The translations under genes were made by a program, and so were the position numbers. The notes beneath the pieces are model-generated. The model was given only the letters and a program-made list of their open reading frames with translations, had not been told where the DNA came from and did no database searches. A DNA stretch of 64,000 nucleotides, taken from positions 62,001 to 126,000 of the forward strand of contig CAIPYE010000001.1 in NCBI GenBank assembly GCA_903869265.1, written 5' to 3'. Positions 2,713 through 59,929 of this stretch are shown piece after piece. The DNA comes from an uncultured delta proteobacterium. GTDB lineage: Bacteria; Desulfobacterota; Desulfobulbia; Desulfobulbales; Desulfurivibrionaceae. The number at the start of each line of letters is the position of its first letter. Within the stretch, counting starts at the first letter, position 1.

Positions 2713-4947
2713 CTAGCCATTGTCCAGAGGCAATTCGACAATGAACCGGGCGCCCCGGGGCTCGTTGTCCTTAACCCGGATATAGCCGTGATGATCCGCC
2801 ACCACCGTGCTGGCAATGGCCAACCCCAAGCCAGTTCCGGTTTTTTTCCGCGAAAAATAGGGTTCAAAGAGACGCGGCTTATCCTCATCGCTGACCCCGG
2901 AGCCGTTGTCCCGCACCTCAAATCTAACCACATTGCGCTCCGGCTCGCAGGCAAGAACAATCTCGATTACCCCGGCTGCGACCGTGGCAGCCACGGCATT
3001 ATTGAGCAGGTTGATGAGCACCCGCTTCATCTGCTTGGTATCAAAGGCGAATTGGGGAATCGGCCCCTCCACCCGCAACCTGAATTGCCTGTCCTTATGG
3101 GCCTCTTGATAGAGAATGAAGGCCTCGTTGGCCATTTCGGCAAGACTGCCCATGGTTTTATGCACCGCAGGCATCCGGGCGAAGTTGGAAAATTCGCTGA
3201 CCAATTTTTTCAGCTCGTCCACCTGATTGACGATGGTTTTGGTGCAGATATCAAAAACCTCCTGATCCCCGGACAGCCGGTCGAGGTATCTCTTGCGGAG
3301 CCGTTGGGCGGAAAGTTGGATCGGGGTCAGGGGATTTTTCACCTCATGGGCGATGCGCCGCGCCACTTCACGCCAGGCCGCCATCCGCTGCGCTTTTTCC
3401 AGCTCGGTGAGGTTGTCAAAAACCAGAACCACGCCAAGGGAGTGATTATTCTCATCTTCCAGCCGGGTTATGTTCACCCGCAGCGAAAAGGTGTCATCCC
3501 CCACCGTGAGGCGCAGCGGCCTTTCCAAGGATGACTTGCCGCTGCGAGAAAGCTCAGCGAGAAACCCTTCCAGAACAGTTCGGTGTTCCGGCCGGAGAAC
3601 CGCGTGATACTCCTTGCCCTCAAAGGCCCGGCGGTCGATGCGGAGTAGTTCCTCGGCAAACCGGTTGATCGTGGTGATCCTCCCCTGTTCATCCAGCGAG
3701 ATAACCCCGGCCGCCACATTTTGCAGGACGATCTCCATGTAGCGCCGCCTGGTCTCGGCATCGAGTTGTCCTTGGCGCAGGGCACCATTTGCCTCTTCCA
3801 GCTGCTTTTTGCTGGCAGAAAGATCGCTGGTCATCCGGTTGAAGGAATCAACCAGGGTTCCCATCTCGTCGCCGGAGGTCTTTTCCAGGACAAAATCCAG
3901 CTCCCCCTCGGCCACCCGCCGCGTCGCCTCGGCCAACCGGTCGATGGGTCCGGTCAAACCGCCTGCCACATAAAAAGCGAACCAGATCGCGCAAAACACG
4001 ATCAACAGGGTGACGATCAACAGCATGACCAGCAGGGTGGTTTTAATCGGGGCCTTGAGGATCATCAACTGCTTGTAGCCCTCATACCCTTTGGAAATGG
4101 TCTGCATCCGCCTGACCCGCTCCAGAGGGATGAGCAGGGAGACAACCAACGCCCCCTGCCGGGCCTCCGCGCCGCCGATGCGCACCGAGCTCACCCCGCG
4201 CACCAACTCCCCTGTCGCCACCGGCTGGATGGCCATCCGCTCCTGCTTGTCGGCATACGCGTTGCGGATCATGTCCAACGGAATTTCCGGAACACCGTCG
4301 CTTACAATCTCAGGCCTGTAAGCCCTGGCCAGCACCTCCCGTTGCCCGGAGATCAACTCGATCCCGGCCAGGCCATGGCTCTTGATGATCTCTTGCAGCA
4401 AAGAGGTCAGGCTTTCCCCGGCAATATCCCCGTAGCGTTTCGACTCCAACCGTTCCGCGATCAGACGGGCCTGGCGGTCAACCTGATCTTGCGCTTCCTG
4501 GTAGGTATTCTTGGCAACGGAGATCGATTCCTCAAGGGATTGGGCAACATTGATGTTGAACCAGTAGTCCATGCTGGTGGAGACAAACTGCAAAGCGATG
4601 AAAAAAAGCAGCCCGGTGGGGAAAAAGGACATGGAAACAAAGGCGATCACCAGCTTGGAGCGCAGCTTTGTCCCCAGGAAACGGCGCCGCCGCTCAAAAA
4701 CAAGCTGCGCCAGATTGCGGAGAACCAGAAACACCATCAACAGCAGCAGCAGGACATTGAAGTTGATGAGCACGAAGACCAGGACATTGCCGCTGACCGG
4801 AAAGGGAATGACACCCAACTGCACGATCCTGGTTTCAAAATAGGTCAGCAGAGGGATCAGAACAAGACAGGCAAGGATGATCAGGCGGATGCGCTTTTTG
4901 CGGCGCTGCCGGTCTTTCCTGAGATCATCCTCCTGGGTGGCATCCAT
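2713..4947 (-). CDS. NtrY-like membrane sensor histidine kinase
   Basis: 744 residues. Three N-terminal hydrophobic segments (about 20-40, 53-78, 98-122) are followed by a non-cytoplasmic sensor region and a fourth TM segment near 300. Then come a HAMP linker, a PAS domain (starting around LQNVAAGVISLDEQG), a HisKA H-box IAHEVKNPLTPIQLS and a HATPase_c domain with N-box INLLNNAVAA and G-boxes DNGSGV and GTGLGLAIAS. This is the usual NtrY architecture: autophosphorylation on the H-box His and transfer to the NtrX-type regulator 113 bp downstream. The signal sensed is not evident. DUF4390 lies immediately upstream, as it commonly does beside NtrY in Proteobacteria. Confidence 0.9.
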   Translation of the reverse strand: MDATQEDDLRKDRQRRKKRIRLIILACLVLIPLLTYFETRIVQLGVIPFPVSGNVLVFVLINFNVLLLLLMVFLVLRNLAQLVFERRRRFLGTKLRSKLVIAFVSMSFFPTGLLFFIALQFVSTSMDYWFNINVAQSLEESISVAKNTYQEAQDQVDRQARLIAERLESKRYGDIAGESLTSLLQEIIKSHGLAGIELISGQREVLARAYRPEIVSDGVPEIPLDMIRNAYADKQERMAIQPVATGELVRGVSSVRIGGAEARQGALVVSLLIPLERVRRMQTISKGYEGYKQLMILKAPIKTTLLVMLLIVTLLIVFCAIWFAFYVAGGLTGPIDRLAEATRRVAEGELDFVLEKTSGDEMGTLVDSFNRMTSDLSASKKQLEEANGALRQGQLDAETRRRYMEIVLQNVAAGVISLDEQGRITTINRFAEELLRIDRRAFEGKEYHAVLRPEHRTVLEGFLAELSRSGKSSLERPLRLTVGDDTFSLRVNITRLEDENNHSLGVVLVFDNLTELEKAQRMAAWREVARRIAHEVKNPLTPIQLSAQRLRKRYLDRLSGDQEVFDICTKTIVNQVDELKKLVSEFSNFARMPAVHKTMGSLAEMANEAFILYQEAHKDRQFRLRVEGPIPQFAFDTKQMKRVLINLLNNAVAATVAAGVIEIVLACEPERNVVRFEVRDNGSGVSDEDKPRLFEPYFSRKKTGTGLGLAIASTVVADHHGYIRVKDNEPRGARFIVELPLDNG

Positions 4948-5678: not shown

Positions 5679-7350
5679 CTAACTGTCGAGGCTTGATTTC
5701 TGAATCTCAGACTGTACATGTTCCCATCTCCCCTGCCACTTTTTCAAGACCAAACTCCTGGCCCGGTCCAAAAATGGGCCAAAGGTTGCGGCATCACGGG
5801 CGCTTACGGCTACCGCCTCATGCAACCGCAGCTGTTCGGCAACAACCTCCGGCGCCACCAGATCAATCTTGTTAAAAACCTTGAGACAGGGAATACCCTC
5901 CAGCTCAAGCTCCCGCAACAAATCCTCCACCACCTGGATATGATCCCCGCAGCGCGGATTGCTGATATCAATCACATGCACCAACACGTCGGCCTCGTGC
6001 AGTTCCTCCAGAGTGGCCTTGAACGCCTTGAGCAACTCCTCTGGAAGATGGCGAATAGCCCACCGTGTCCGTGATTATAACCTCCACATCCTCGGGAAAC
6101 CGCAGCCGTCTACTGGTCGGGTCCAGGGTGGCGAACAGCTTGTCCTCCGCGACAATGGCGCTGTTGGTTAAAGTGTTGAGCAGGGTTGACTTCCCGGCAT
6201 TGGTATAGCCCACCAGCGAGAGAACCGGCAAGTCCTTTTTGCGACGCCGACTCCGCCGCTGCTCCCGCTCGCGGCTGACCTCCTTGAGTTTCTTGGCCAG
6301 CTTGCCCAACCGGTCGTTGATGCGGCGGCGGTCCACCTCCAGCCGGGTCTCACCGGGGCCGCGCCCACCGATGCCGCCGGTGAGCCGGGACAGGGCGTCA
6401 TCCCTGGTGGTCAGCCTGGGCAGCATGTATTTGAGCTGGGCCATCTCGATCTGCAGCTTGCCTTCCCGACTCAAGGCCCTTCTGGCAAAGATATCAAGGA
6501 TCAGCTGGGTCCGATCGATGACCCGCAGTTCGGTGTGGTCGGTTATGGACCGGACCTGGGAAGGATTCAGCTCTTGGTCGAAAATCAACAGATTGGCGTT
6601 GAGCCGCAGCGCGGTCAGCATGATCTCGCCGAGCTTGCCCTTACCCAAGATCAACCGGGGGTTGATCTTTTCCCGCCGCTGCACCACGGTGTCGAGGACA
6701 ATCACCTCGGCGGAGCGCGCCAGATCGACAAGTTCGTCCATGGACTCCTGGGCCTTACCCTTGGACAGCGGGGTCACACTGACCAAAATCGCCCGGTCCC
6801 GGCCAGAATCAATCTCCCGCACCGGACGGGCCTTGGCAAACTCATCCTCCAGGGCGGCAATGAGTTCCCGGCAAGAGTGTCCCTGCTGGCTGGGAATCTC
6901 CGGCTCCAGCAAGAGCCAGTTCTTCCCCTCCACCGTCTGGGGCACCAGATGGGCGGAGTAGAGCCGGGTTGCCACCCCCTGCTCCATCTTCACCACGGTC
7001 ATCATATCCAGCCGCAGGAAGAGCAGATCCATCAGATCATCTTCGCTGATGTCCTCGCCTGCAAGATGGGTATGCACGCAGCGCAACCCTTTGAGCCGCC
7101 CACCCGAAGCCCGGAATTGTTTGAGGGCCGGGATCATGATGGAGCGGTGATCCCCGACCATGACCGCCTCGACCAGCCCGGCCCGGCTGAGCAACACCCC
7201 CACCTGTCGCCCAAGCTCAAAGGCAACCGCGCAAATCTCTTTTGCCAGCTCCGGGCTGATGATCATATCAGGGTTGACCCGGCGGCTGGCAATGCGCTCA
7301 AGCCCTTTCATCTGGGCGGTTTTCAAGCCGCTGGTATTGCCGGTTATCAT
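5679..7350 (-). pseudogene. hflX: HflX ribosome-associated GTPase, reading frame broken near 6055
   Basis: HflX is a GTPase that splits stalled or hibernating 70S ribosomes. Codons from ATG 7350 encode the N-terminal HflX domain (VNPDMIISPELAKEICAVAF), the linker and the G domain with Walker A GYTNAGKST and switch II up to DTVGY, then leave the family sequence and stop at 5968. The rest of HflX (LPEELLKAFKATLEELHEAD onward) continues in another frame to the stop at 5679. The switch lies at 6053-6058, where the minus strand reads GGCTATTCGC. Two extra bases would restore GYIRHLPEELL, close to the usual DTVGFIRDLPEEL. I see no slippery heptamer for programmed shifting. It is either a 2-nt deletion or a sequence error. 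The gene begins 2 bp after selB. Confidence 0.85.
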
Positions 7351-7352
7351 GC

Positions 7353-9272
7353 CTATGACTGCCGCTCCCGCAACAGACGCCGGTCGCCAACCCGGATAGT
7401 CACCTTGATTTTATCAAAATACTCCAGCAGGGGGATGGAAAATTTTCTGGTCAGGCCGGTGAGATTTTTAAAGCGCGGCGCGTCGATCTCCCCATCTTTT
7501 TTGATGAAAGCCACAATCTGTTCCTGCAAGGTTGCTATAGCCCGGGTCTGGAAATAGAGATCCTCGCTGATCTTGACCAAAACCTGCTCGCGGACCAGCA
7601 ACTCGAGAACCTCGCGGACCAGGGGGGCGGGATACTTGGCAAACCGTTCCTGCACCTCCCGCACGGTGGGCGGCGTCAGTCCGGCCTCCCCGTAAAAACC
7701 CTCCATTTCAGCACGGATGCTTTTGGCATCCGTTTTGAGCGATACCTGATGGCTGGTCAGCCTGACCGTTGCTTCATCGACGACAATTGCCCCCTGTTTA
7801 ACCAAGGTATTGAGCAGCAGCTGAAAAAACCGCTGATCCAAGTCGCCGTGCAGCCGGGAACGCAGCTCCTCCTTGGACAACCCCGGCTTCATCGAATTGT
7901 CCCGGTGAAAATCAGCCAGAATCTTGGTCAACGATGCGCCCATACCCTCGAAGGTTTCCGCCGCGACCATGCGCTGCCGGTCCGAATCGACCATGATAAT
8001 TTTTCGGCTGGAGATGGGGGTGTCAAGCAGCTTCCTAAAACGCTTGCCGAACTGGCCCATCTTGACGCAGAGCGCCTCGAAGGTGAGCCCGGCAACCCCG
8101 GCCTCCCGCAGATGCAACAGCGAGACATCCTCGGCAGAGCCCTCCTGATACAGGGCGAAAACCTGGCTGTTCGCCTCCTTAAACCGCCGCCGTTTGGGCG
8201 GAGAACCGTTCCAGATACCGCCGCCGCCGATGGTGGCAACGGGCGAGTAGCTTCGCACCACATAGCGGTCCCCGGGCCAGGCGCCGAACGGCTCCTCCAG
8301 CAATATTTGCACGTTTGCCCGGCTGCCAGGGGAAAGCTCTTCATCCTCCAGCAGCGCGATACGGCCCATGATCTCGGCGGTACCGATGTGCACCCGCACC
8401 CGGCTTCTGTTCTTGAGGGGCTTGGCGTTACCGGAAAGATAGAAAAAATCGGCGTCCAGCAGAAAGGAGGGCGCGAGGGTTCCTGGAGTGGCGAGCATGT
8501 TGCCCCGGGCAATCATCTCGGTGTCCAGACCCTGGATGTTGATGGCAGTGCGCTTGCCCGCCTCGACCAGCTCCACATCCTGGCCATGCACCTGGATGCC
8601 GCGAATCTTGGCGGTATGGCCCTGAGGATAGACGGTGATGTCCTCGCCCACCCCGATTCGGCCTGAAATGGAGGTGCCGGTGACCACCACCCCGAACCCC
8701 TTCATGCTGAACACCCGGTCCACCGGCAACCGAAACGGGCCATGGGCTTCGGAAAACTCGCTGGTCCGCACCAGGGTGTCCAGCACCTCCCGGACCTCGT
8801 CCAGCCCCTCGCCGGTGGTGGAGGAAACCGCGACCATGGGTGCGTCTTCCAAAAAGCTGCCGGCCAGGAACTGACGCACATCCTCTTGCACCAGCGCCAG
8901 CCACTCCGCATCCACCATATCCTTCTTGGTGAGGATCACCAACCCCCGCTTCACCCCGAGCAGTCGGCAAATCTCGAAATGCTCCCTGGTTTGGGGCATG
9001 ATCCCCTCGTCCGCCGCAATGACAAAGGCGAGCAGATCGATGCCCGTGGCTCCGGCCACCATGTTTTTCACGAAACGTTCGTGGCCGGGAACATCGATGA
9101 TGCCGAGGCGATGGCCGCAGGGCAGATCAAGAAAGGCAAAGCCAAGCTCGATGGTGATGCCCCGCTTTTTCTCCTCCTTGAGCCGGTCGGTGTCAATGCC
9201 GGTGAGGGCCTTGACCAAACTGGTCTTACCGTGATCCACATGGCCAGCCGTGCCGAGAACAATCTCCCGCAT
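7353..9272 (-). CDS. selB: Selenocysteine-specific translation elongation factor SelB
   Basis: SelB is the EF-Tu paralogue that delivers selenocysteinyl-tRNA to UGA codons followed by a SECIS hairpin. The 639-residue protein starts with G1 [10 protein letters not shown] (residues 10-19), followed by switch [12 protein letters not shown]3 DVPGHE and G4 TKKD. Then come EF-Tu-like beta-barrel domains and, from about residue 380, the winged-helix repeats ([32 protein letters not shown]) that bind SECIS RNA. Length is normal. It shows that the organism uses selenocysteine, which supports the UGA reading of the HesB-like gene at 17583-17930. No selA, selD or tRNA-Sec is in the window. It heads the selB-hflX-DUF4390-ntrY-ntrX gene series. 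Confidence 0.96.
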
Positions 9273-9275
9273 CTG

Positions 9276-9914
9276 CTACCAGTTCCCTTTCAGGTACGGG
9301 TTGTTGCGAGCCTCATCGCCCACGGTGGATCTGGCCCCGCCATAGCCATGCCCAGGCCAGACCACAGTCTCCGCAGGCAGGGTCAGAATCTTTTCGTTGA
9401 TGGCAGCAAGCATCTGTTTGCTGTCGCCGCCGGGAAAATCGGTGCGCCCAAGTCCTTCGACAAACAGAGTGTCGCCGGTGAAAAGATGGGGAGCACCATA
9501 GAGACAGATTCCGCCCGGAGTATGTCCAGGGGTATGGAGAACCGTAAGGATGAGCTTGCCGATGACGATCTTCTCGCCATCGGTTACGGTCCGGTTCACC
9601 GGCGGCGAAGCAGGCAGGCCGAGCATGGAAAAATAGTCAATAACCTCCGGCCGGGCGAAAAACTCGGCATCCGCCGCGTGCATGACGATGGGCGCGCCGG
9701 TGGCCTTTTGGATCACCCCGTTGCCGCAGACGTGATCCGGATGGCCGTGGGTGCAGAGAATCGCCTCCACGCTCAGCCCCTCAGCCCGGCAGAAGCCGAG
9801 AATCTGCTCCTCGTTGCCGCCGGGATCAATGATTGCGCACTTCTTTGTTTCCTCGCAGCCCACCACATAGCAGCACACAGCCATGGAGCCCACGGTCAGC
9901 TGTTTTACGATCAT
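9276..9914 (-). CDS. MBL-fold metallo-hydrolase, glyoxalase II-like
   Basis: 212 residues with the metallo-beta-lactamase-fold metal ligands: THGHPDH (motif 2), HTPGHTPGG (motif 3), FTGDTLF with its Asp (motif 4) and PGHG near the C-terminus. This binuclear metal site is typical of short glyoxalase II/GloC-type thioester hydrolases. The start ATG at 9914 is 11 bp after the Mrp-type ATPase gene and its stop is 3 bp before selB, so the three are probably co-transcribed. The substrate (a thioester or persulfide) cannot be decided from sequence. Confidence 0.88.
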   Translation of the reverse strand: MIVKQLTVGSMAVCCYVVGCEETKKCAIIDPGGNEEQILGFCRAEGLSVEAILCTHGHPDHVCGNGVIQKATGAPIVMHAADAEFFARPEVIDYFSMLGLPASPPVNRTVTDGEKIVIGKLILTVLHTPGHTPGGICLYGAPHLFTGDTLFVEGLGRTDFPGGDSKQMLAAINEKILTLPAETVVWPGHGYGGARSTVGDEARNNPYLKGNW

Positions 9915-57057: not shown

Positions 57058-57141
57058 TGGTGCGAGAGGGGGGAGTCGAACCCCCATACCAAAGGCGCTG
57101 GTTCCTAAGACCAGTGCGTCTACCAATTCCGCCACTCTCGC
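57058..57141 (-). tRNA. tRNA-Leu (UAG)
   Basis: 84 nt with encoded CCA. Acceptor GCGAGAG pairs with CTCTCGC; anticodon loop CTTAGGA gives UAG; a long variable arm (CGCCTTTGGTATG region) and T-loop TTCGACT are present. It lies just upstream of tig in the same direction. Confidence 0.96.
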
Positions 57142-57385: not shown

Positions 57386-57537
57386 CATCCCGGAACACGG
57401 TGTAACTCCGTGGCGGTCCCGCCGCTGTAATCGGGGATGCTGGTCGGCACAGGGAATTTCCCGGTCACTCCCAGAGCGTATCACTCTGGGGGGAAGGCCG
57501 CAGACCAGCAGACGATCCGAAAGTCAGAAGACCTGGT
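57386..57537 (+). promoter_or_regulatory. Cobalamin (adenosylcobalamin-type) riboswitch
   Basis: The expected conserved blocks occur in order: GGAACACGGTG, then GGTCCCGCCGCTGTAATCGGGG, GGTCACTCCCAGA, a hairpin CCCAGAGCG...CTCTGGGG, GGGAAGGCCGCAGACC and GATCCGAAAGTCAGAAGACC. The CCGCCGCTGTAA block and GAAAGTCAGAAGACC end are the B12-box elements. An intrinsic terminator follows 57 nt later, so ligand binding would stop transcription before the peptide and radical SAM genes. A gene-free stretch of about 240 bp lies between tRNA-Leu(UAG) and the aptamer. Confidence 0.93.
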
Positions 57538-57593
57538 GATAATGTTTTTCACGCATGTATTGCTGTTCGTCTGGGTATTCTAATGGAAACAGA

Positions 57594-57632
57594 ACCCGGA
57601 GTGACTCCTATAGGGGTTGCTCCGGGTTTTTT
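57594..57632 (+). terminator. Intrinsic terminator of the cobalamin riboswitch
   Basis: ACCCGGAG (57594-57601) pairs with CTCCGGGT (57620-57627), with inner ACTCC/GGGGT-type pairing, and a run of nine T follows. Its place between aptamer and first gene makes it the expression platform. Confidence 0.92.
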
Positions 57633-57668
57633 TTATGCACGCAGGTCAACAACCACGAGGAGAACACC

Positions 57669-57797
57669 ATGAAAACCCAGAAACAGATCATTTCATACCG
57701 TCGGCGCTGCAATCTGATCGGTCAGGGAACCGGCCTTTCCCATTATATCCTGCTCGCCCCCAGCGCGAACACAACCCCAGAGGACGGCAGCAACTAA
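57669..57797 (+). CDS. 42-residue candidate RiPP precursor peptide (CbpA-like)
   Basis: Start ATG 57669 follows GAGGAG by 6 nt. The peptide begins MKTQKQIISYRRRCNLIGQG and ends PSANTTPEDGSN. It has one Cys (position 14), a basic YRRRC block, a Gly-rich turn, SHYILL, and an acidic/Thr tail. No signal peptide or TM helix. Its TAA shares one base with the ATG of the radical SAM gene (TAATG), so both are translated together. A short peptide coupled to a radical SAM/SPASM enzyme is the standard layout of a modified-peptide pathway. I recall the family names CbpA/CbpB for a cobalamin-riboswitch-linked pair like this, but could not check. Confidence 0.75.
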   Translation: MKTQKQIISYRRRCNLIGQGTGLSHYILLAPSANTTPEDGSN

Positions 57798-59188
57798 TGG
57801 CACAAACAGACAAACTGACCGCAACGGCCATTTTCGCCAACACCGGCCATGGCCCGAATTTTTCCCTGCTGGAGATCGGCGACCCTGACCGGGTTGCGGT
57901 TGTTGAAGCGGAGACGGCCTATTGGGCCCTGGTTGACCGCCATGACTTGCCCCAGGCCCTGGCTGGTTCCATGGTCGAAGACTTCATGGCCCGCGCACCG
58001 GAGTTTCATGCGGAAATGGATCACCTGCGCACGGGCTTGCAGCTCTCCGCCGCGTATGTGAACCCCACAGAACGCTGCAACCTGAATTGCAGCTACTGCT
58101 ACCTTCCAGAAGAGATGCGCAAAAACGGCATCGATATGGGCGAGGAAAAGCTGATGCTCGCCCTTGAACGGCTGGGGGAACATTTCCGGAAGATTTTGCC
58201 GGAGGGGGTAAAGCCCCAGCTTATTTTTCACGGCAGCGAACCCATGGTTGCCAGGGATGCTGTGTTTGCCGCGATTTCGAGATTTAAAGACGACTTTCAC
58301 TTCGGCATCCAGACCAATGCCACCCTGCTTGACGACACGGCAATCAGTTTTTTAAGGGAGCACCGGGTCGGCATCGGCCTATCCCTGGATGCCCCCACCG
58401 CAGAGGTCGCCAACCGCACCAGGAAGAACTGGCAGGGCAACGGATATTACGACACGGTTGTATCGGTGATCAAAAAACTCGCTGATTACCCGGCCCTGAA
58501 TGTCATAACCACCGTAACCCAAGCCAACGTGCACACCCTGACCGAAATGGTGGACTTTTATCACGGGCTGGGGGTGCGGGTGGTAATGCTCAATCCGGTG
58601 CGCTGTACCCGCCAAGGCGGAATGGACCTGAAACCGGACAACCATGTCCTGGCCGAGGCCTTCTTCAAGGCGCTGGACCGCTCTTTTGAGCTTCTTGAAC
58701 AAACCGGCAGAAAGCTCGTCATCGCCAACTTTGCCAATGTTCTGGCCGGAGTCATCGGCCCGACCGGTCGCAGACTGATGTGCGACATCTCTCCCTGTGG
58801 AGGCGGCCGTTGTTTCTTTGCCGTTTCCGCAGACGGCGAGGTTGTGCCGTGCAGCGAATTCATCGGCATGAACGAGTTTTCCGGTGGGAACATCTTCCGT
58901 GATGATCCTGCCGATATTCTTGCCAGCAAGCCCTTCCAGGAAGTAACAAACAGGAAGGTGGAAAAAATTGTCCCCTGTGCAGGATGCGCCATTCGGCATT
59001 TCTGTGGAGCACCCTGTCCTGCCGAAATCTACAAGGTGTCTGGCGATATCAATGCACCGAGCCCCTACTGTAGTTTCTTTGAGGAGCAGGTCCGCCATGC
59101 CTTCCGTATAATCGCCCAGCAACGGGAGGATGCCTATCTCTGGGACAGCTGGCAGACCGAAACAGAAATGTCCTATTGCTGGAAATAA
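57797..59188 (+). CDS. Peptide-modifying radical SAM/SPASM enzyme (CbpB-like)
   Basis: 463 residues from ATG 57797, which overlaps the precursor stop by one base. Residues 1-85 are a distinct N-terminal domain. The [4Fe-4S]-SAM motif CNLNCSYC (C94, C98, C101) follows, then the partial TIM barrel with HGSEPMV in the GGE-like position. The C-terminal SPASM region has many Cys: CDISPCGGGRC, VVPCSEF, VPCAGCAIRHFCGAPCPAEIY and SPYCSFF, for auxiliary Fe-S clusters. Such enzymes make C-C, C-S or epimer changes in peptides. The riboswitch ties expression to cobalamin shortage. The bond made is unknown. No transporter or protease gene is next to it; a terminator follows. Confidence 0.88.
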   Translation: MAQTDKLTATAIFANTGHGPNFSLLEIGDPDRVAVVEAETAYWALVDRHDLPQALAGSMVEDFMARAPEFHAEMDHLRTGLQLSAAYVNPTERCNLNCSYCYLPEEMRKNGIDMGEEKLMLALERLGEHFRKILPEGVKPQLIFHGSEPMVARDAVFAAISRFKDDFHFGIQTNATLLDDTAISFLREHRVGIGLSLDAPTAEVANRTRKNWQGNGYYDTVVSVIKKLADYPALNVITTVTQANVHTLTEMVDFYHGLGVRVVMLNPVRCTRQGGMDLKPDNHVLAEAFFKALDRSFELLEQTGRKLVIANFANVLAGVIGPTGRRLMCDISPCGGGRCFFAVSADGEVVPCSEFIGMNEFSGGNIFRDDPADILASKPFQEVTNRKVEKIVPCAGCAIRHFCGAPCPAEIYKVSGDINAPSPYCSFFEEQVRHAFRIIAQQREDAYLWDSWQTETEMSYCWK

Positions 59189-59202
59189 CTTTTTTTCCAT
59201 AA

Positions 59203-59236
59203 AAACCAGCCGGATCCTCCACCGGCTGGTTTTTTC
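59203..59236 (+). terminator. Terminator after the radical SAM gene
   Basis: AAACCAGCCGG (59203-59213) pairs with CCGGCTGGTTT (59222-59232) around ATCCTCCA, followed by T residues. It bounds the riboswitch-controlled unit at two genes. Confidence 0.92.
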
Positions 59237-59350: not shown

Positions 59351-59929
59351 ATGAAAGTCGTCGCTTTTAACGGAAGCGCCCGCAAGGGAGGAAATACCGC
59401 AAAATTATTGAATACCGCCTTGGACGAGCTGGCCCTGCAAGGGATCGATACGGAACTGGTGGAATTGTCAGGCCAACCGATCTCCGGCTGCACCGCCTGC
59501 TATAAGTGTTTCAAAAACAAAGACAATCGTTGCGCCGTAAAAAAAGACATCATCAACGATTGCCTTGCCAAAATGATTGCGGCGGATGGCATTCTCCTGG
59601 GTTCCCCCACCTACTTCGCCGATGTCTCCGCAGGAATGAAGGCTCTAATTGAGCGGTGTGGCATGGTTTCCCGGGCAAACGGCGATCTGTTCAAACGCAA
59701 GGCCGGGGCCGGAGTGGTCGCGGTCCGTCGGGCAGGGGCCATTCAAGTGTTCAACTCCCTCAACGCCTTTTTCCTGATCGGCCAGATGATCGTGGTGGGT
59801 TCTTCTTACTGGAACATCGGCATCGGCAGGGAACCGGGCGAGGTGGCCAACGACGAGGAAGGCATGAAAACCATGCACGACCTGGGACGCAACATGGCCT
59901 GGCTCCTCCAGAAAATCAAAGCGGAATAA
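59351..59929 (+). CDS. NAD(P)H-dependent flavin reductase / iron-sulfur flavoprotein-like
   Basis: 192 residues of flavodoxin fold. FMN-binding NGSARKGGNTAKLL is at the N-terminus, and GSPTYFADVSAGMKALIERCG follows. Between them is ISGCTACYKCFKNKDNRCAVKKD, with closely spaced cysteines as in iron-sulfur flavoproteins, though the spacing is not the compact Isf motif. AGGAG lies about 8 nt before ATG 59351. A terminator separates it from the peptide unit, so it has its own transcription. Substrate unknown; this family reduces quinones, oxygen or metals with NAD(P)H. Confidence 0.87.
   Translation: MKVVAFNGSARKGGNTAKLLNTALDELALQGIDTELVELSGQPISGCTACYKCFKNKDNRCAVKKDIINDCLAKMIAADGILLGSPTYFADVSAGMKALIERCGMVSRANGDLFKRKAGAGVVAVRRAGAIQVFNSLNAFFLIGQMIVVGSSYWNIGIGREPGEVANDEEGMKTMHDLGRNMAWLLQKIKAE

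Follow-up and report, generated by a model that had tools for sequence, protein, structure and literature searches.

A cobalamin-riboswitch-controlled peptide and radical SAM/SPASM enzyme pair, CbpAB, with a proposed role in cobamide assembly

Introduction

In the PqqA/PqqE system, the intracellular cofactor PQQ is made from a small peptide with the help of a SPASM enzyme. CteB, another enzyme of this kind, is the thioether-forming maturase of SCIFF peptides. In cobamide (B12-type cofactor) biosynthesis, BzaF is the anaerobic 5-hydroxybenzimidazole synthase that supplies a lower ligand, and cobalamin riboswitches are known to control B12-independent isozymes as well. The pair considered here, CbpB and CbpA ('cobopep'), is already known in the form of the NCBIfam models TIGR04163 and TIGR04164, respectively; a literature search on these models, cobopep, and CbpB with riboswitch returned nothing on the cbpAB system.

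The locus described here encodes a CbpB far above the TIGR04163 cut-off and a CbpA whose core matches TIGR04164. By analogy with PqqA/PqqE, it may combine a small peptide and a SPASM enzyme to feed an intracellular cofactor, but CbpA lacks the Glu-Tyr motif and no pqq genes are neighbours. CteB is the best listed match to CbpB in both sequence and fold, including an RRE-like N-terminus; however, the two share 23% identity, CbpA has one Cys against the six-Cys SCIFF pattern, and CbpB stands in a B12 context. The anaerobic benzimidazole synthases BzaF and BzaAB would occupy the slot that we propose for cbpAB and likewise have cobT as a neighbour, whereas their proteins are unrelated to CbpAB and use AIR as substrate, with no peptide. 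New here are the riboswitch and operon context, the archaeal cbpAB pairs, a reduced CbpA motif, and the mutual exclusion of cbpAB and BzaF among genomes with de novo corrin synthesis; the archaeal, operon and BzaF contexts are undescribed in the literature found.

Results

Architecture of the locus

The unit lies within a 64,000-nucleotide stretch (the window) of the genome of an uncultured Desulfurivibrionaceae bacterium, hereafter the own genome (G000). An Rfam scan placed a member of RF00174, above the gathering threshold, upstream of cbpA on the same strand (Table 1); this element is predicted to bind a cobamide and to switch expression. A first-pass annotation had described an aptamer, a terminator, a 42-residue peptide gene, an enzyme gene whose ATG shares a base with the peptide stop, and a second terminator, all of which were confirmed at base level. 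In the TAATG overlap, the cbpB ATG starts at 57797, the final base of the cbpA TAA. The closing stem-loop and T-run were missing from the pattern-scan list, though visible in the sequence.

Table 1. Features of the cbpAB unit. Coordinates without a locus or genome label, here and in the text, are window positions.
Feature	Position	Strand	Basis
Cobalamin riboswitch aptamer	57392..57532	+	Rfam RF00174, 65.6 bits, E 6e-14, gathering 31.5
P13-like hairpin CTGTT/AACAG, loop with TGGG	57563..57592	+	sequence; conservation in 10 congeners
Candidate antiterminator, CTGGGTATTC (57571-57580) with GAACCCGG (57592-57599)	57571..57599	+	inferred; nearly invariant in 10 congeners
Intrinsic terminator before cbpA	57591..57635	+	strong stem 57591-57630, then T8
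cbpA, 42-aa precursor peptide MKTQKQIISYRRRCNLIGQGTGLSHYILLAPSANTTPEDGSN	57669..57797	+	ORF, Shine-Dalgarno GAGGAG, homologues
Conserved CbpA core Y10-R-R-R-C14...G22-L-S-H25-Y26	57696..57746	+	alignment, 77 distinct peptides
cbpB, 463-aa radical SAM/SPASM peptide maturase	57797..59188	+	TIGR04163, PF04055, PF13186, AlphaFold2 model
CbpB N-terminal strand-strand-strand-helix domain, residues 21-80, RRE-like	57857..58036	+	model secondary structure; CteB alignment starts at residue 21
Radical SAM motif C94-x3-C98-x2-C101	58076..58099	+	invariant, bacteria and archaea
SPASM-region cysteines C329, C334, C352, C394, C397, C403, C407, C425	58781..59071	+	alignment
Closing terminator of the unit	59204..59236	+	stem-loop and T-run, read directly in sequence

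The leader folds far better than its shuffles (z -4.5). The 3' segment of the candidate antiterminator is also the 5' arm of the terminator, making the two structures mutually exclusive, and the CTGGG of the antiterminator stretch also sits in the loop of the P13-like hairpin, where, judging by eye, TGGG may kiss CCCG of the L5 region. Because such kissing would mask the antiterminator and leave the terminator free, the platform reads as OFF with B12 bound: binding would hide the antiterminator, the terminator would form and cbpAB would be silenced, which is the usual logic and agrees with the earlier suggestion of expression at low cobalamin. Of 42 bacterial leaders, 32 have a strong terminator in the interval from riboswitch to cbpA, and its stem sequence is specific to the clade. 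A tRNA gene (57061-57141, minus strand) immediately precedes the riboswitch and is oriented against it; it is found also in congeners L026 and L033. Beyond the closing terminator follows an NADPH-dependent FMN reductase family gene (59351-59929), present in five congeneric loci too.

The peptide CbpA

Own CbpA is homologous by position and core, though under the curated threshold it is not a TIGR04164 member (25.8 bits, E 5e-6, cut-off 35). Among 77 distinct bacterial and archaeal peptides, the Cys, Gly-Leu and His columns are invariant, His is preceded by S, T or A and followed by Y or F, and Cys and His lie 8-11 positions apart, giving the minimal motif C-x(5-8)-G-L-[STA]-H-[YF]; part of this conservation is by construction, because the search pattern itself fixed C, G and H and demanded an aliphatic residue, then S/T/A, before the H and an aromatic one after it. 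The pattern does not account for the aliphatic residue being Leu in every case, nor for a match at almost all loci, and the motif occurred in 1 of 4200 shuffled upstream regions. Arg stands three positions before Cys in 64 of the 77, mostly as Y-R ahead of the Cys. The prediction that YRRRC and SHY are the conserved columns therefore stands for Cys, G-L, [ST]-H, [YF] and, for the most part, the preceding Y-R, and falls for the RRR run. CbpA has a single Cys and no signal sequence.

The enzyme CbpB

CbpB is a member of TIGR04163 ('peptide-modifying radical SAM enzyme CbpB'; 676.8 bits, cut-off 375), and the names suggested in the first-pass annotation were right: the search of RiPP models returned TIGR04163 above and TIGR04164 below its cut-off. 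A CxxxCxxC motif, SPASM cysteines, an RRE-like N-terminus and an adjacent precursor fit a radical SAM/SPASM peptide maturase, and the proposed pairing of peptide and maturase is supported. The eight SPASM-region cysteines are at least 97% conserved among 58 aligned bacterial and archaeal CbpB proteins. The AlphaFold2 model (pLDDT 81) opens with three strands and helices in RRE style, and its best solved structure match is CteB (PDB 5wgg/5why; CbpB residues 21-443, Z 31, 3.5 Å over 378-390 residues); no PDB structure among those listed was nearer, which says nothing on fold novelty. Because CteB is a thioether-forming maturase, a Cys-based cross-link is the first guess for the chemistry, and CbpB would by this analogy modify CbpA, probably by cross-linking. 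Membership among the SCIFF or ranthipeptide maturases was rejected, as CbpB scores 134 versus 340 bits for PapB and 105 versus 425 bits for the SCIFF maturase, and CbpA has one Cys.

Bacterial distribution and gene context

Of the 258 genomes of the class, 14 have CbpB; for the phylum the count is 36 of 395, in 25 genera. The peptide is present at every examined bacterial cbpB locus with intact upstream sequence. A riboswitch directly precedes cbpAB at 36 of the 38 bacterial loci having upstream sequence (Rfam scan), bearing out the B12 control first proposed for this locus. The order riboswitch, peptide, enzyme is repeated in tens of genomes; the arrangement is therefore not due to chance. 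At the other two loci (G393 and G571), cbpAB lies inside cobamide-biosynthesis operons, with a riboswitch at the operon head in G393 and the order cobT-...-cbiP/cobD-cbiB-cbiA-cbiC-cbpA-cbpB-cbiX-cbiM-cbiN-cbiQ-cbiO-cbiD-cbiE-cbiL-cbiF-cbiG-cbiH in G571; placement between cbiC and cbiX-cbiMNQO occurs in two bacteria. Most bacterial units are free-standing and distant from cob genes, and they have no recurring operon partners except clade-specific flanks. The unit had been noted to contain no exporter or peptidase, and none recurs beside cbpAB across tens of loci; together with the missing signal sequence, this makes the suggested intracellular action likely. One contig, L096 (G598), carries two cobalamin riboswitches (1889-2074 and 4605-4820), one preceding cbpAB and the other between cbpAB and a btuC-like gene.

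The archaeal branch

The entry point to an archaeal branch was CbpB of a Geoglobus MAG, which scores above the TIGR04163 cut-off (459 bits). CbpB occurs in 41 of 393 searched genomes of that archaeal phylum. At 39 of 40 loci, GGL[ST]H[YF] or a near variant of it marks a peptide just upstream, one of these 39 peptides being cut by a contig end; the peptide is conserved well beyond the own genome. Archaeal CbpAs are typically about 27 aa and often SPF-terminated; many are about 26 aa, with almost no leader. Those tested score 20-29 bits against TIGR04164 and, like own CbpA (26 bits), fall under the 35-bit cut-off, so annotation based on this model would miss them. At eight of the 40 loci, from two separate CbpB branches, cobT (TIGR03160, 453 bits) follows cbpB directly and almost gaplessly on its 3' side. 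No cobalamin riboswitch was found at the 20 archaeal cbpAB loci scanned. Homologues without a riboswitch had been named in advance as evidence against the proposal, and they do exist in archaea; because they keep the peptide and some adjoin cobT, they strengthen the B12 link rather than refute it.

Corrin synthesis and BzaF-type paralogues

The gene cbiD, which marks the de novo anaerobic route to corrins, is present in 35 of 36 cbpAB-positive and 20 of 44 cbpAB-negative genomes (p=3e-7) in a sample of 80 related genomes, the 44 negatives having been chosen by hand out of an even draw across the phylum. Neither strict CbiM (5 of the 36) nor acetyl-CoA synthase (32/36 versus 33/44) showed a significant link to cbpAB. 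The sole cbiD-less exception among the 36 is the own genome, which is 99.2% complete and without cbiC and cbiD; its congeners G197 and G208 are likewise cbpAB-positive without cbiC/cbiD. Since genomes of this kind keep cbpAB, the need for the pair goes beyond cobalt insertion, and a pure cobalt-insertion idea is further weakened because cbpAB is not co-lost with cbiC/cbiD inside the own genus. A second cobalamin riboswitch in the own genome (G000:C15:192517-192698; L107 12518-12699, minus strand) heads genes for a btuB-like receptor, a BtuF-CbiZ fusion (PF01955, 178 bits), TonB, BtuC and BtuD. From its gene content, the own genome appears to take up and remodel corrinoids instead of building the ring; remodelling would in turn require a lower ligand.

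Turning to lower-ligand synthesis, 13 ThiC paralogues (L205, L207, L209, L212, L251, L254, L257, L261, L266, L270, L275, L283 and L286) form a BzaF-type clade with LSLGNG.RAG where ThiC has LSLGDG.RPG; cobT is adjacent in four and near in a fifth. The assignment rests on the clade (quick tree), the discrete motif and the neighbours because NCBIfam does not separate BzaF from ThiC, the two BzaF-type proteins tested scoring as ordinary ThiC. Within the sampled bacterial genomes, to which these counts refer, a BzaF-type paralogue was found in none of the 36 cbpAB-positive genomes. Among cbiD-positive genomes the comparison is 0 of 35 with cbpAB versus 11 of 20 without (p=1.4e-6), and counted by family it is 0 of 13 versus 7 of 15 (p=0.007). 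The own genus shows the switch as well: cbpAB is missing from G203, which carries BzaF, whereas G000 and G195 carry cbpAB and lack BzaF. Mutual exclusion, together with cobT beside cbpB in archaea and beside BzaF in these bacteria, makes alternatives at the lower-ligand step the economical reading of cbpAB and BzaF, the cobT link being read from locus neighbours. To our knowledge, adenine-type and other purine lower ligands require no dedicated gene or synthase, so a genome without BzaF does not necessarily miss a step.

Discussion

We propose that CbpA is made ribosomally as a short precursor, that the RRE-radical SAM-SPASM enzyme CbpB would modify its invariant Cys and/or G-L-[ST]-H-[YF] segment, and that the product would act inside the cell in cobamide assembly. 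In Desulfobacterota, modified CbpA would be produced under corrinoid scarcity, since B12 binding is predicted to favour the terminator. The best-fitting step would be the supply of the lower (alpha-axial) ligand to CobT, in place of BzaF. That cbpAB has a role somewhere in cobamide metabolism is very probable. The explanation as a whole, a B12-controlled RiPP in cobamide assembly and most likely at the lower-ligand step, is our leading candidate at slightly under an even chance, and the lower-ligand step specifically is a tentative assignment; we hold the cobamide link strongly and this step less firmly because of the sample, the way BzaF was assigned and the existence of purine ligands. It is doubtful, if worth entertaining, that the lower ligand derives from the peptide or cannot be made without it, in a hitherto unrecorded peptide-based B12 branch shared by Desulfobacterota and archaea. 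How a Cys/His peptide might be converted into a base accepted by CobT is not obvious.

The first-pass annotation had suggested that the product binds cobalt or a corrinoid, or replaces a B12 function; gene context and phylogenetic profile point instead to cobamide assembly. A carrier whose Cys and His residues hold cobalt or an incomplete corrinoid, for delivery at low B12 to CbiX/CbiK or salvage enzymes, would suit the invariance of both residues, the placement of cbpAB, which precedes cbiX-cbiMNQO in two bacteria and lies close to cbiMNQO at one archaeal locus, and B12-repressed logic; we consider it unlikely, as the own genome, G197 and G208 retain cbpAB without cbiC/cbiD, strict CbiM is rare, and both the BzaF exclusion and the tie to cobT would go unexplained. 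A further rival is a role at another cobamide step (reductive adenosylation, the nucleotide loop or remodelling) or as a peptide regulator, with the BzaF exclusion a lineage effect. The riboswitch and operon settings tie cbpAB to no fixed partner gene and the family-level p value is only 0.007, which leaves room for such a role, but exclusion also holds inside the own family and genus, and cobT adjacency is common to the BzaF and cbpAB settings, which renders it improbable.

A B12-sparing role, with the modified peptide serving as a cofactor or modulator to take the place of a B12-dependent activity or to silence it, would accord with the general control of B12-independent isozymes by cobalamin riboswitches. 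No enzyme travels with the pair, however, acetyl-CoA synthase shows no link and the archaeal linkage is to cobT, so we give this idea little credence. Least credible of all is a secreted RiPP, metallophore or antimicrobial: the architecture is RiPP-like, but no exporter or peptidase recurs nearby, CbpA has no signal sequence, and the archaeal forms have almost no leader.

In published comparative genomics, about 42% of predicted bacterial cobamide producers have no known gene for the lower ligand (PMC6461909); should cbpAB fill that slot, it would account for some of them. Such a function would be a new cofactor role for RiPPs and would predict that archaea and Desulfobacterota contain cobamide forms or routes not yet recognised. 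Whatever the step, the two-gene unit is conserved in two domains and tied to B12 assembly, and its undescribed function is open to direct testing, with substrates of only about 26 residues.

Two flanking features of the archaeal loci may be added. In the Geoglobus MAG (L019, about 7300-9800), a TldD/TldE-like peptidase pair lies directly upstream of cbpAB; a role as proteolytic processor of CbpA, suggested by this locus, was rejected, the arrangement being confined to one lineage. A gene divergent from cbpAB, encoding an RHH and AIRS-like protein of about 309 aa, accompanies nine archaeal loci (L165, L159-L163, L169, L177 and L187) and in L165 leads into cbiMNQO near cbpAB; its product is possibly a B12 or cobalt regulator, or an alpha-ribazole-related enzyme.
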